Source: Halomontanus rarus
Lineage (GTDB): Archaea; Halobacteriota; Halobacteria; Halobacteriales; Natrialbaceae
NCBI RefSeq assembly: GCF_017357405.1
Contig: NZ_CP071597.1
Coordinates: forward strand, 3,782,001-3,846,000
DNA: 64,000 nt
Direction: 5' to 3'
Part shown: in pieces, positions 4,144 to 55,628 of the stretch
Position numbering within the stretch: position 1 is the first letter of the stretch
Layout of the letters: every line of letters begins with the position of its first letter
The notes under the pieces: model-generated
Databases searched by the model: none
What the model saw: the letters and a program-made list of their open reading frames with translations, nothing else
Told to the model about the DNA's origin: nothing
Position numbers and translations under genes: made by a program

Positions 4144-5655
4144 TTAGCGCCGGCGCTGGGACACGTTCTCCTCCGCGGTATCGTCGGCGACCACCTCGTA
4201 CAGTATCGCCCGCCGACCGTCCGCTTTCGGTCGGAGGATCCGACCGAGGCGCTGGGTGAACTCGCGCTCGCTCCCGCTGCCCGAGAGGACGACGGCGACG
4301 GTGGCGTCGGGCACGTCGACGCCCTCGTCGAGGACGTTTGACGTGACTACGCGGGAGTAAGTCCCCTCGCGAAACCGCTCGAGGATCTCTCGCCGTTCTG
4401 CGGTGGCGGTCTGGTGGGTGATCGCCGGAATCAGAAACCGTTCGGCGACGTCGTAGACGAGGTCGTTGAACGCCGTGAAGACGATGATCCGGTCGTCGCG
4501 GTGGTCGTCGAGGATCCCCTCGAGCGCCTCGAGCTTCGCGTCGCTCCCGTAGACGATTGCGCGGGCGCGTTGTTTGGCGAGCAGCGCCTCGCGGGCCTCG
4601 GGATCCGACCCGGAGCGCTTGACGAGTTCCTGGTAGTCCGAGCCGCTTCGAAACTGGATGTTCGAGCGGGCGAGGTAGTCGGTGAAGACCTCCTGTCGGC
4701 GGTCGTACTCCTCGCGCTCGGCGTCGGTGAGCGAGACCGCGAGGCGTTTGAGGTCGTACGCCGCGAGGTGGTCGCCAGCCAGTTCGTCGATATTGACGCG
4801 GTGGACCAGCGGGCCGACGATCCCTTCGATCACTTCGTGGGCGTCGTCGGGGCGTTCGAACGTCGCCGTGAGGCCGAGTCGGGCGGGCGCCGCGAGCAGT
4901 CGGGCGATCTCGCGGTACCCCTCGCCCCCGAGGTGGTGAACCTCGTCGAAGACGACGAGGCCGAAGCGGTCGCCGACGGCGTCGGCTTTCAGGTACGCCG
5001 AGTCGTAGGTCGACACCGTGATCGGTTCCAGGCGCTGTTCGCCGCCGCCGAAGCGGCCGACCTCGAGCGCGAACTCGCGCTCGAGTTCGCGGATCCACTG
5101 CTCCTGGAGGTCGATCGTCGGGACGACGACCAGCGTCGGCGTCCGGAGGGTTTCGATGGCCTCGATCGCGATGACCGTCTTCCCGCTTCCGGTGGGGAGT
5201 TCGAGGACGCCGGCGGGTGCTCGCGCCGGCGCTCGTTCCGGTTCTGGTTCCGGTTCTGATCCTCGCTCGCGTCGGCGCTCGTGATCGCGCTCGAGTTCGG
5301 AAGACCGGCAGCGCGGCCGATCGATATCGGCCCACCGATCCGTCTCGAGCCAGTCTCCGAGTGCGTCCGCCTGGTACGGACGGAGTTCGTACGCCGAGTC
5401 GAGCGGCGGGAGGTCGGCCAGCGAGAGGACGCGATCCTCGACGGCGAGATTCGACGCCGCGAGTGCGCCTCGAAGCTCCGCGTACCGAAACGCCGGCGTT
5501 CGGGACGTGTCGCTACGGGGATCGGCCTCGAGGTCGAGTCCCCGAGTCAGTTCGGAGTCGAGGTGAGACTCGAGTACCGCGTGTGCCGAGTCCGAGGCGT
5601 CGCTGGCGTCGATCCGAACGGTCCCGTCCTCGTATCGGAGGTCGATCGCGGCCAC
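4144..5655 (-). CDS. XPB/Rad25-type superfamily 2 DNA helicase
   Basis: 503 aa, GTG start at 5655 with a TATA-like TATTTGTAG about 28 nt upstream, so probably leaderless. Walker A LPTGSGKT lies around residue 152-159, DEVHH around 236, motif III GLTATFERPDD, motif IV IIVFTAFNDLVYD, motif V NVLDEGVDVPDATVAVVLSG and motif VI QRLGRILRPK. This is the archaeal XPB layout with an N-terminal damage-recognition-like domain. It unwinds DNA in repair, normally with Bax1. Just before Walker A there is a low-complexity insertion (GSEPEPEPERAPARAPAG) made by a hexanucleotide-type repeat. The Bax1 gene is 3 kb away on the same strand. Confidence 0.92.
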   Translation of the reverse strand: MAAIDLRYEDGTVRIDASDASDSAHAVLESHLDSELTRGLDLEADPRSDTSRTPAFRYAELRGALAASNLAVEDRVLSLADLPPLDSAYELRPYQADALGDWLETDRWADIDRPRCRSSELERDHERRRERGSEPEPEPERAPARAPAGVLELPTGSGKTVIAIEAIETLRTPTLVVVPTIDLQEQWIRELEREFALEVGRFGGGEQRLEPITVSTYDSAYLKADAVGDRFGLVVFDEVHHLGGEGYREIARLLAAPARLGLTATFERPDDAHEVIEGIVGPLVHRVNIDELAGDHLAAYDLKRLAVSLTDAEREEYDRRQEVFTDYLARSNIQFRSGSDYQELVKRSGSDPEAREALLAKQRARAIVYGSDAKLEALEGILDDHRDDRIIVFTAFNDLVYDVAERFLIPAITHQTATAERREILERFREGTYSRVVTSNVLDEGVDVPDATVAVVLSGSGSEREFTQRLGRILRPKADGRRAILYEVVADDTAEENVSQRRR

Positions 5656-52835: not shown

Positions 52836-52950
52836 GGTCGGCGTTCTACGGGTTCGTAGTTGGGTCTTTGCCCGTCGTATCCGCGTCTCTATTCCGCCCT
52901 TGCGAGAGAGACTCTCGCTAGCGCTGAAACGATTTTCGACAACCGGCACA

Positions 52951-52956
52951 ATTAAG
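52951..52956 (+). promoter_or_regulatory. Probable TATA box for the leuA leader transcript
   Basis: ATTAAG in a GC-rich context, placed so transcription would begin near 52980 and the ATG at 52985 would be nearly leaderless. This puts 95 to 100 nt of leader before leuA. Confidence 0.45.
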
Positions 52957-52979
52957 CCTCGGCCGGCGCTGGATACGAG

Positions 52980-53078
52980 TACACATGGCACGAGATACGC
53001 CCGCTGTGGAGGATAGAGGAAGTCGCCGCAAGGCGGCTGGCCGTGAAATTCGACGGTAATGACACTCTTACTCCCTTT
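52980..53078 (+). ncRNA. Structured leader RNA before leuA
   Basis: Between the probable start near 52980 and the leuA ATG the RNA holds a 24-codon ORF, a 7-bp hairpin with a GCAA (GNRA) loop at 53021-53038 and a leucine mini-ORF at 53059-53082. A GGAGG stretch at 53008-53012 could pair with the ACTCCC at 53070-53075. A conserved RNA named leuA-Halobacteria is in my memory as a published computational motif at this spot; I could not check it here. Confidence 0.55.
52985..53059 (+). CDS. 24-codon upstream ORF of leuA (leader)
   Basis: ATG at 52985, product starting MARDTPAVEDRGSRRK with many Arg residues, TAA at 53057-53059 that overlaps the ATG of the leucine mini-ORF (TAATG). It is basic, unlike ordinary haloarchaeal proteins, and its codons run through the GCAA hairpin. 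It is more likely a control leader than a functional protein. Confidence 0.45.
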   Translation: MARDTPAVEDRGSRRKAAGREIRR

Positions 53079-53082
53079 ATGA
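53059..53082 (+). CDS. Leucine-rich leader mini-ORF, MTLLLPL
   Basis: Seven codons, ATG-ACA-CTC-TTA-CTC-CCT-TTA, then TGA. Four of the seven are leucine, and two use TTA, a codon that is rare in this GC-rich window. Its ATG overlaps the stop of the preceding ORF and its TGA overlaps the ATG of leuA (ATGA at 53079). A leucine-rich peptide directly before a leucine-pathway gene is the form of a leader peptide for attenuation. Confidence 0.55.
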   Translation: MTLLLPL

Positions 53083-54602
53083 TTGGTCGTGACGCATTCG
53101 TCTCCGACGATCGAACCGTAGAACTTCTCGACACCACGCTCCGCGACGGCGAACAGGCCCCCGGGGTCTCGCTCTCGCCCGACGAGAAGGTCGAGATCGC
53201 CCAGGCCTTAGAACGCGCCGGCGTCTCCGTCATCGAGGCCGGCAGCGCCTGCACCGGCGCCGGCGAGCGCCAGGCGATCTCCCGGGTAACCGACCTCGAC
53301 CTCGACGCCCGCGTGACGAGTTTCTGTCGCGGGATCGAGTCAGACATCGACCTCGCCCTCGAGTGCGACGTCGACGGCATCCACCTCGTCGTCCCGGCGA
53401 GCGACCGCCACGTCGAGAGCAAGGTCGGCAGCACCCGCGCGGAGATCCGCGAGAAGACCGCCAATCTCGTCGAGTACGCGAAAGGCGAGGACCTCTGGGT
53501 CGAGGTCATCGGCGAGGACGGCTCCCGCGCCGACCTCGACTACCTCGAAGAACTCATGGGAACCGCACTCGAGGCCGGCGCCGACCGCGTCTGTTTCGCG
53601 GACACCGTCGGCCACACCGGTCCCGAACACACCTACGAAGCCGTCTCCCGATTAGCGGAGCTCGGCCCCGTCAGCGCCCACACCCACGACGACCTCGGCC
53701 TCGGCGTCACGAACGCCCTCGCCGCGATTTCGGCGGGTGCCGACCTCGTCCACTGCACCGTCAACGGGCTGGGCGAACGCGCCGGCAACGTCGCCTTAGA
53801 GGAGGTCGCGATCGCCCTCTCGCACGTTTACGACGTCGAGACGGTCGAACTGGATCAGCTGTACGACCTCGCCCAGATCGTCTCGCGGACGACGGGCATC
53901 CAGCTCGCGCCGAACAAGGCCGTCATCGGCGAGAACGCCTTCACCCACGAGAGCGGCATCCACACCGACGGGACGCTCAAGGACGACAAGATGTACGAAC
54001 CCTACGCGCCCGAAACCGTGGGCCGGGAGCGACGACTCGCCCTCGGCAAACACACCGGCCGCGCCGGCGTCCGGGCCGCACTCGAGGAACACGACTTCGC
54101 GGCCACCGACGAGCAGGTCGGCGAGATCGCGAACCGCGTGACGGAACTGGGCGACCGCGGTCGTCGGGTCACCGACGCCGACCTCCTCGCCGTGGCAGAG
54201 GACGTCACCGGCGACGACCACGAGCGAACGGTCGAGTTACTGGATCTCAACGCGACCAGCGGCGGGCCCGTGCCGACGGCGAGCGTCCGACTGGACGTCG
54301 CCGGCGAGGAACGCGTCGCGGCCGGGACCGGCTCCGGCCCCGTCGACGCGGCAGTCTCGGCGGTCCGAGAGGCGCTCGGACCGGCCGGCGAGGCCCAACT
54401 CGAGGCCTTCCACGTCGACGCCATCACCGGCGGGACCGACGCCGTCGTCACCGTCGAGGTGACGATGAGCCGCGACGACCGAACAGTGAGCGTCGCCCGG
54501 AGCGAGGCCGACATCACCCGCGCGAGCGTGACCGCGATGGTCGACGCGCTCGACCGACTGTTGACCGACGAGAAGGCGGCGCGAACGCTGGCCGACGACT
54601 GA
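53079..54602 (+). CDS. leuA: 2-Isopropylmalate synthase / citramalate synthase family (leuA-like)
   Basis: 507 aa from the ATG at 53079. The start VELLDTTLRDGEQAPGVSLS carries the metal and substrate motif; CFADTVGHTGPEHTYEAVSR, SAHTHDDLGLGVTNALAAIS and CTVNGLGERAGNVALEEVAI are further synthase blocks; the C-terminus is the LeuA regulatory domain (DLNATSGGPVPTASVRLDVA, DAITGGTDAVVTVEVTMSRD). It condenses acetyl-CoA with a 2-oxoacid at the head of leucine (or isoleucine) synthesis. The leucine-rich leader just upstream supports the leucine role; citramalate synthase remains possible. It stands alone, without leuBCD. Confidence 0.9.
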   Translation: MIGRDAFVSDDRTVELLDTTLRDGEQAPGVSLSPDEKVEIAQALERAGVSVIEAGSACTGAGERQAISRVTDLDLDARVTSFCRGIESDIDLALECDVDGIHLVVPASDRHVESKVGSTRAEIREKTANLVEYAKGEDLWVEVIGEDGSRADLDYLEELMGTALEAGADRVCFADTVGHTGPEHTYEAVSRLAELGPVSAHTHDDLGLGVTNALAAISAGADLVHCTVNGLGERAGNVALEEVAIALSHVYDVETVELDQLYDLAQIVSRTTGIQLAPNKAVIGENAFTHESGIHTDGTLKDDKMYEPYAPETVGRERRLALGKHTGRAGVRAALEEHDFAATDEQVGEIANRVTELGDRGRRVTDADLLAVAEDVTGDDHERTVELLDLNATSGGPVPTASVRLDVAGEERVAAGTGSGPVDAAVSAVREALGPAGEAQLEAFHVDAITGGTDAVVTVEVTMSRDDRTVSVARSEADITRASVTAMVDALDRLLTDEKAARTLADD

Positions 54603-55543: not shown

Positions 55544-55628
55544 CGCCGAGAGGGAGATTTGAACTCCCGAGTCCGTGAGGACAGTAGATTTCGAATCTAC
55601 CGCCTTGGCCGGGCTAGGCTATCTCGGC
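55544..55628 (-). tRNA. tRNA-Ser, anticodon CGA
   Basis: 85 nt on the minus strand: acceptor GCCGAGA/TCTCGGC, D arm, anticodon stem GTAGA/TCTAC with loop TTCGAAA (anticodon CGA at 55591-55593), a long variable arm (class II) and T arm with GGGAG.TTCAAAT.CTCCC. The discriminator is G. CCA is not encoded. This long variable arm and anticodon give serine (UCG). TATA-like CATAAAG at 55654-55660 is 29 nt upstream. Confidence 0.93.

Follow-up and report, generated by a model that had tools for sequence, protein, structure and literature searches.

How is the leuA-like gene of the haloarchaeon Halomontanus rarus translated, and what is the role of the short open reading frame (ORF) and the conserved RNA in front of it? 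We addressed this question in the window, the whole 64,000-nucleotide (nt) stretch of contig NZ_CP071597.1 that was analysed. A sequence-only reading of this DNA had proposed leader-peptide attenuation of leucine synthesis, with ribosomes passing from a 24-codon ORF through a Leu-rich mini-ORF to leuA over overlapping stop and start codons. The features of the locus are the following.

52951..52956, plus strand: TATA-like ATTAAG, about 30 nt 5' of the ORF1 ATG, read from the sequence (putative promoter)
52985..53059, plus strand: ORF1, the leader, 24 codons encoding MARDTPAVEDRGSRRKAAGREIRR and a stop, frame 0
53002..53054, plus strand: RF03001 leuA-Halobacteria RNA, matching the full model (1-53) at 74.1 bits against a gathering score of 47.9
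53009..53020, plus strand: unpaired conserved GAGGATAGAGGA, SD-like, 5' of the hairpin, its columns mostly conserved in 134 distinct sequence windows
53021..53038, plus strand: 7-bp hairpin AGUCGCC-GCAA-GGCGGCU with a GCAA loop, its 3' end 7 nt before the GAA codon
53045..53051, plus strand: proposed shift site, GAA-AUU-C in frame 0, to be read as AAA and then UUC in the +1 frame, base 53048 being skipped
53048..53050, plus strand: Ile codon ATT, proposed A-site sensor codon (ATT in 145 and ATC in 11 of 156 loci)
53057..53059, plus strand: frame-0 stop (TAA), the fourth codon after GAA, terminating unshifted translation
53049..54602, plus strand: ORF2 in the +1 frame, LeuA-like enzyme, fused product of 538 aa
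53059..53082, plus strand: mini-ORF MTLLLPL and stop, judged non-functional; of 129 loci, present only in the window and in L031

The spacing of ORF1 from ATTAAG suggests an mRNA that is leaderless or nearly so, and T/A-rich boxes 5' of ORF1 were seen by eye in many relatives. Judged by its letters, the segment 53009..53020 may play an SD-like role. ORF2 contains HMGL-like, HCS_D2, and LeuA_dimer domains, and in the ORF listing its frame is already open from GTG 53043, upstream of ATG 53079. When ORF1 residues 1-21 were joined to the frame from 53049, a continuous frame of 538 aa with no internal stop was obtained; ORF1 would then be the N-terminus of the enzyme, reached via a +1 shift. On the comparative evidence given below, we consider it quite likely that RF03001 is a programmed +1 ribosomal frameshift attenuator triggered by slow decoding of an Ile or Leu codon.

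RF03001 scored above its cut-off in 312 of 391 Halobacteria genomes. The motif sample comprised the best 80 of 92 leuA loci and 88 further motif loci, and 52 genomes were selected by hand so as to sample many genera and include some with two motifs. A sequence pattern found the motif in 157 of the 169 sequences (168 loci plus the window). L138, a weak match inside another gene, was excluded from all motif counts, leaving 156 motif loci (type 1). From the 157 pattern-positive sequences, 131 lead into a LeuA core; two of these, L066 and L131, are off frame and were excluded from the 129 leuA loci used for counting. In the other 25 motif loci, the gene that follows encodes DUF7528 instead. The pattern requires the AAAT, CTG-like, and GGATA letters, whose constancy is therefore in part a product of the search; still, the 87 loci that the covariance model retrieved by itself (L138 set aside) all fit the pattern, including the GAA shift site. 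Together with leaders of other types and with the leaders of a second LeuA (IPMS, see below), the comparison covered about 330 loci. Different loci may be from the same species, and the set contains 276 distinct 90-nt windows (137 of type 1, 95 of IPMS, 24 of type 3, and 20 of type 2).

All elements of the earlier proposal are present in the sequence: the 24-codon ORF, the TAATG junction to M-T-L-L-L-P-L, the ATGA junction to ATG 53079, and the hairpin with its GCAA loop. The name leuA-Halobacteria was confirmed by the RF03001 match. The chain of overlaps is the sole support in the window for a route in which ribosomes terminate at the end of ORF1, reinitiate at the Leu mini-ORF and so reach ATG 53079, with stalling on the Leu codons of the mini-ORF as the control. 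Neither the TTA codons of the mini-ORF nor the chain of junctions was conserved in the 129 leuA loci. MTLLLP was found in 2 of them (the window and the near relative L031), and a TAATG-type overlap of an ATG with the ORF1 stop in 6, not above chance. Nor is the ATG start of leuA conserved: in 96 of the 129 loci, the 80 codons next to the core contain no ATG in the leuA frame. Since the leuA frame runs without a stop from the motif (129 of 131 loci) and, in the window, from GTG 53043, the mini-ORF lies out of frame over leuA coding sequence, and by this comparison it is a local accident. We regard the reinitiation route as extremely unlikely. The comparison shows a +1 change of frame between ORF1 and the enzyme instead of a stop/start overlap, and the conserved codon is not Leu but the Ile codon at the end of ORF1. 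Thus, the earlier idea of leader-peptide attenuation stands insofar as a translated leader ORF for branched-chain amino-acid synthesis is supported, and falls with respect to the Leu mini-ORF and reinitiation. Attenuation of transcription as in bacteria is unlikely, because no terminator-like site was found in 52880-53200.

ORF1 was present in the same frame in all 156 motif loci, with its ATG one base behind the enzyme frame, and the nearest upstream ATG of any frame fell in the ORF1 frame in 153 of them. The peptide reads M..EDRGSR...AGREI.. plus a few codons, with variants, and ends in R/C-E-Ile and a few further codons. Exactly one Ile is encoded in 150 of 156 ORF1s; there is no run of regulatory codons. 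The distance from GAA to the frame-0 stop is 3-9 codons in 155 of 156 motif loci and at most 9 codons in 129 of 129 leuA loci; a stop within 9 codons is expected at 8.3% of 30,654 gene-body positions and at 27% of 3,150 positions in N-terminal extensions. The site codon was GAA and the next codon always Ile (ATT or ATC) in 134 of 134 distinct windows. Among these ATT is predominant (see the feature list), and in the enzyme cores it accounts for only 75 of 1,793 Ile codons. At the two codons 5' of GAA, the third position is almost unconstrained (1.89 and 1.75 bits; other bases 0 to 0.7 bits), and in the enzyme frame these variable bases are second positions. Because the third positions before GAA are near-free and ATT and ATC alternate, frame 0 is probably translated through the Ile codon. 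Frame-0 codons are conserved through X-Ile/Leu, X being the codon before the Ile or Leu codon, and not beyond, placing a conserved shift site where the frame-0 constraint ends.

The Rfam hairpin was counted pair by pair. Of 116 distinct windows, all form six of the seven pairs and 114 form the remaining one, with covariation between CG, GC, and TA. The hairpin could be, and probably is, a frameshift stimulator. Only this hairpin with its counted pairs is claimed; a free-energy fold of type 1 was rejected as hairpin evidence since it scattered when a longer window was used. A whole-genome pattern search for CGAGTTCTTC was likewise discarded, its 138 matches showing a word that is too common, an ordinary Glu-Phe-Phe. 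The strong sequence conservation and the covarying hairpin would also be expected of a metabolite- or protein-binding RNA acting without ORF1 translation. This reading is very improbable: the conservation has a frame-0 codon pattern, and the leaders of types 2 and 3 and of IPMS have the logic of ORF1 in common but lack the RNA motif, with no RF03001 match in 11 sources of such leaders.

Next to be considered is where the enzyme starts. In 129 of 131 loci no stop interrupts the enzyme frame between the motif end (..GNG AAA TTC) and the core; this frame is in +1 relation to ORF1, and the motif-to-core spacing takes 25 different values (17-132 codons). GTG 53043 was rejected as a general leuA start, the codon before AAA being GTG in 71, GCG in 46, GAG in 10, and GGG in 4 of 131 loci. 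In five of the 129 leuA loci, the whole stretch from the upstream stop to the core is free of ATG, GTG, and TTG. Two findings at these loci count against a frameshift. In 123 of 129 loci some ATG, GTG, or TTG occurs in the enzyme frame within 80 codons, at scattered places, and from the motif to the first of these codons the substitutions (37/34/41 on the three positions) show no coding rhythm. The missing rhythm may reflect a loosely constrained tail that is also coding in frame 0 at its start.

L113 and L131 are two motif copies of one genome (G306) with near-identical leaders; beyond the motif, L131 has its leuA frame shifted by two. Three Natrialba loci (L066, L069, and L109) contain a Thr/Ser-rich insertion of about 80-100 codons between motif and LeuA core. 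Compared with its sister loci L069 and L109, L066 is out of frame by one, possibly through a sequencing error.

A second LeuA is encoded in the genome of the window, in the ilv-leu operon, with neighbours ilvB, ilvN, ilvC, leuC, and leuD above NCBIfam cut-offs and, following these, a leuB-like dehydrogenase below its cut-offs. This operon LeuA is the obvious isopropylmalate synthase (IPMS), and its orthologue was found in 126 of 126 genomes searched. The IPMS sample contained 129 loci, one per genome (125 from the 126 genomes searched and 4 others). The IPMS of G124, absent from the 129, was read separately and agrees. Third and further LeuA homologues of some genomes are outside the sample, as is L192, a second homologue in G021 near a contig end with an ordinary ATG 23 codons before the core.

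In all 129 IPMS loci, an ORF1 overlaps the IPMS frame in a phase needing +1, and its site reads R-V-L in 128 and R-F-L in 1. From the ORF1 ATG onwards, the IPMS frame lacks ATG, GTG, and TTG in 106 of 129 loci, and in 65 these codons are missing from the entire stretch between the upstream stop and the core. No start within 80 codons was found in 66 of 129 IPMS loci versus 1 of 30 trpE control loci, an imperfect control given that trpE genes sit inside longer open frames. The distance from site to core is 55 nt in 116 loci and 37, 52, 58, or 61 nt in the rest. The Leu codon of the site is CTT in 125, CTC in 3, and TTG in 1 locus, and among the 392 Leu codons of 30 IPMS cores, 4 are CTT. At 21-59 nt 3' of the site, substitutions in 45 independent pairs fell 113/42/28 on frame-0 positions 1/2/3, which is a +1 rhythm. 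On the 5' side, the same 45 pairs gave 17/21/26, a weak frame-0 rhythm that counts against the frameshift reading. A common IPMS hairpin was sought by alifold and none was found; a helix at a distance of 7-8 nt was rejected, as it came from a window ending at -7 and scattered with a longer one. The divergent small-genome member G021 has an IPMS-type enzyme (L182) 62% identical to the IPMS of the window genome. Its site is a different version, R-F-L (CGT TTT TTG), with no canonical start in the enzyme frame.

Two further leaders were recognised. Enzymes of the window type without RF03001 have a different leader, here called type 2, with R-F-I in 22 of 22 loci and a strong hairpin 3' of the site (mean -9.6 versus -4.5 kcal/mol for shuffled sequences). 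Examination of 20 genomes without RF03001 revealed 9 with only IPMS-like matches (36-40% identity), and G021 has only matches of 42-44%. Type 3 precedes DUF7528. The 25 motif loci with this protein (PF24372) are alike by eye, the Pfam call being made on the one copy scanned, and the DUF7528 frame keeps the same relation to the motif in 21 of 21 copies placeable by the strict pattern. A second set of 30 DUF7528 loci (L202-L231), a part of all copies, contained 6 with an RF03001-type motif and 24 without; type 3 is the leader of these 24, with R-V-L in 24 of 24 and no ATG in the protein frame in 22 of 24. Type-2 and type-3 sites were placed by exact patterns, and no locus of those sets failed.

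Like the two enzymes, DUF7528, a haloarchaeal family, is encoded in +1 to a short ORF1, with Ile (R-E-I) or Leu (R-V-L) versions, at L016, L023, L115, L123, L125-L130, L132-L137, L160-L168, and L202-L231. Its neighbours in three 10-kb regions, viewed by eye, gave no pathway hint. The DUF7528 gene of the window genome itself (L402, about 4678-5167; G000:C1 near 3.7287 Mb) has R-E-I on a type-3 leader.

These leaders bear on the possibility that ORF1 is an overlapping regulatory upstream ORF and that the enzyme starts inside it, four codons ahead of the +1 TTC, where types 1 and 3 have CTG and type 2 has GTG. A CTG is indeed present in 156 of 156 type-1 and 24 of 24 type-3 loci, a GTG in 20 of 22 type-2 loci, and in type 1 an SD-like GAGG lies upstream. 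The type-2 GTG could be an ordinary direct start. However, in type 1 the codon was never ATG, GTG, or TTG in 156 loci, and the invariance of CTG there follows from the pairing of its C and T in the hairpin. At IPMS, the aligned codon is CGG, GGG, GCG, or GGA in 125 of 129 loci and CTG in 4. Among the 106 IPMS loci without ATG, GTG, or TTG, 67 have a CTG somewhere in frame, as an internal start would allow, whereas 39 also lack CTG and so have no NTG after the ORF1 ATG. We consider an internal start quite unlikely.

Which enzyme does the window gene encode? NCBIfam NF002085 names its product 2-isopropylmalate synthase, at subfamily level. Comparison of the proteins points to a paralogue: Ile or Leu precedes G-E-D in 139 of 139 scored window-type enzymes (of 151; 12 unscored), and Ser precedes P-M-D in 47 of 47 scored IPMS (of 49; 2 unscored). 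In aligned solved structures the same position is Ser and Gly in two isopropylmalate synthases and Thr in homocitrate synthase. A bulky residue at this position of the 2-oxoacid pocket is, we presume, suited to pyruvate, which would make the enzyme a citramalate synthase. The window gene is thus probably citramalate synthase (CimA), the isoleucine-pathway paralogue. The earlier placement of the regulated gene in leucine synthesis therefore probably does not fit the window gene itself, which would belong to the isoleucine pathway, and holds for the leucine-pathway gene elsewhere in the genome, which carries the Leu-codon version of the leader. Threonine ammonia-lyase was above cut-off in 144 of 145 genomes, so CimA is not the only possible isoleucine route of haloarchaea, and absence of this lyase was rejected as uninformative proof of CimA. 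The sole genome without it over the cut-off, G002, has an RF03001-led enzyme (L117), which fits a citramalate route.

The site codon matches the pathway: it is Leu in 129 of 129 IPMS loci and Ile in the 129 type-1 and 22 type-2 loci of the paralogue. All leaders have a common core, Arg (or Cys)-X-(Ile or Leu), with X being GAA, GTT, or TTT. By reasoning, a +1 slip of X (GAA to AAA, GTT to TTC, TTT to TTA or TTT) would keep at least two base pairs; the pairing is imperfect, GAA to AAA and GUU to UUC keeping two of three pairs, and this counts against the slip. Because the A-site codon is kept as an amino acid through synonymous change, Ile for the window type and Leu for IPMS, slow decoding is proposed as the trigger of the shift.

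In the model we propose, the ribosome would start at the leaderless ORF1 ATG and translate as far as ...A-G-R-E, which places GAA in the P site and AUU in the A site. When isoleucyl-tRNA is plentiful, AUU would be read and translation would terminate at TAA, giving no enzyme. When isoleucyl-tRNA is scarce, the ribosome would wait and the P-site tRNA would move from GAA to AAA, a slip perhaps pushed by the hairpin ending 7 nt upstream. UUC would then be read, and further translation in the +1 frame would yield the 538-aa enzyme, which is probably the citramalate synthase of the first step toward isoleucine. The operon IPMS would rely on an equivalent switch containing a Leu codon (R-V-L), and Ile or Leu versions would precede DUF7528 genes. 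Comparison of the loci established ORF1, its +1 relation to the enzyme, the missing starts, the invariant amino acid, and the covarying hairpin, and the frameshift itself is strongly supported; for amino-acid sensing, the exact slip, and the role of the hairpin, the model says what we infer. Extended to all leader types, it describes a haloarchaeal class of amino-acid-specific +1 frameshift attenuators, in which a leaderless ORF1 ends in R-X-(Ile/Leu), one codon sets the specificity, and the enzyme, and likewise DUF7528, lacks a start of its own. We think such a class likely.

The +1 frameshift could also be real and constitutive, setting a fixed low enzyme level with no sensing of Ile or Leu, the branched-chain codon being merely slow and slip-prone. 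This alternative agrees with the rarity of ATT and CTT in these enzymes, with the low use of GTT (75 of 1220 Val codons), and with the occurrence of both Ile and Leu versions at DUF7528. A merely slow codon, however, does not account for a codon that is kept as an amino acid (ATT/ATC, CTT/CTC) and that, in all loci examined, is not the same for the Leu-pathway enzyme as for its paralogue. We therefore judge constitutive shifting unlikely and continue with the sensing frameshift.

Autoregulatory +1 frameshifting is known from bacterial prfB (RF2) and eukaryotic antizyme, which combine a short ORF1, a slow A-site codon whose decoding reflects the product, and a stimulator. The leaders proposed here would share this arrangement, with the enzyme in +1. 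Unlike prfB and antizyme, the slow codon would be a sense codon (Ile or Leu), not a stop, the regulated genes are biosynthetic, and the mRNA is archaeal and probably leaderless. A prfB-type stop codon in the A site is absent, as the site is ATT/ATC or CTT/CTC/TTG and the stop comes later. Bacterial leu, ilv, and trp operons are controlled by leader-peptide attenuation, where a translated leader contains codons for the end product. A translated leader with an end-product codon would control the haloarchaeal genes too, but through one codon and not a run, with no terminator-like site in the region searched, and with the leader joined to the enzyme. In starved Escherichia coli, hungry-codon frameshifting occurs when one aminoacyl-tRNA is short, which is a laboratory phenomenon; the same trigger is proposed here, in what would be a conserved natural switch.

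If correct, the model would provide a mechanism for an Rfam RNA whose entry, as consulted, gives none: the RF03001 entry names only a cis-regulatory RNA, which we read as the end of a coding leader with a frameshift site and which also precedes DUF7528 genes. The starts of two central biosynthetic enzymes would be out of reach of ordinary gene calling across an archaeal class. Sensing an amino acid would take no more than a single codon and slippage by one base. Such a simple device could pass from gene to gene (citramalate synthase, isopropylmalate synthase, DUF7528), its codon fitting the product in each case. Nature would here be using hungry-codon frameshifting to sense nutrients, and Archaea would have a regulatory frameshift that spans a whole class.

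Two further genes were noted around the locus. A divergent phosphoribosyltransferase-like gene (52287 to about 52835, minus strand; identity and start by eye) shares the intergenic region with ORF1, and a tRNA gene (55544-55628, minus strand) lies downstream of the leuA-like gene.
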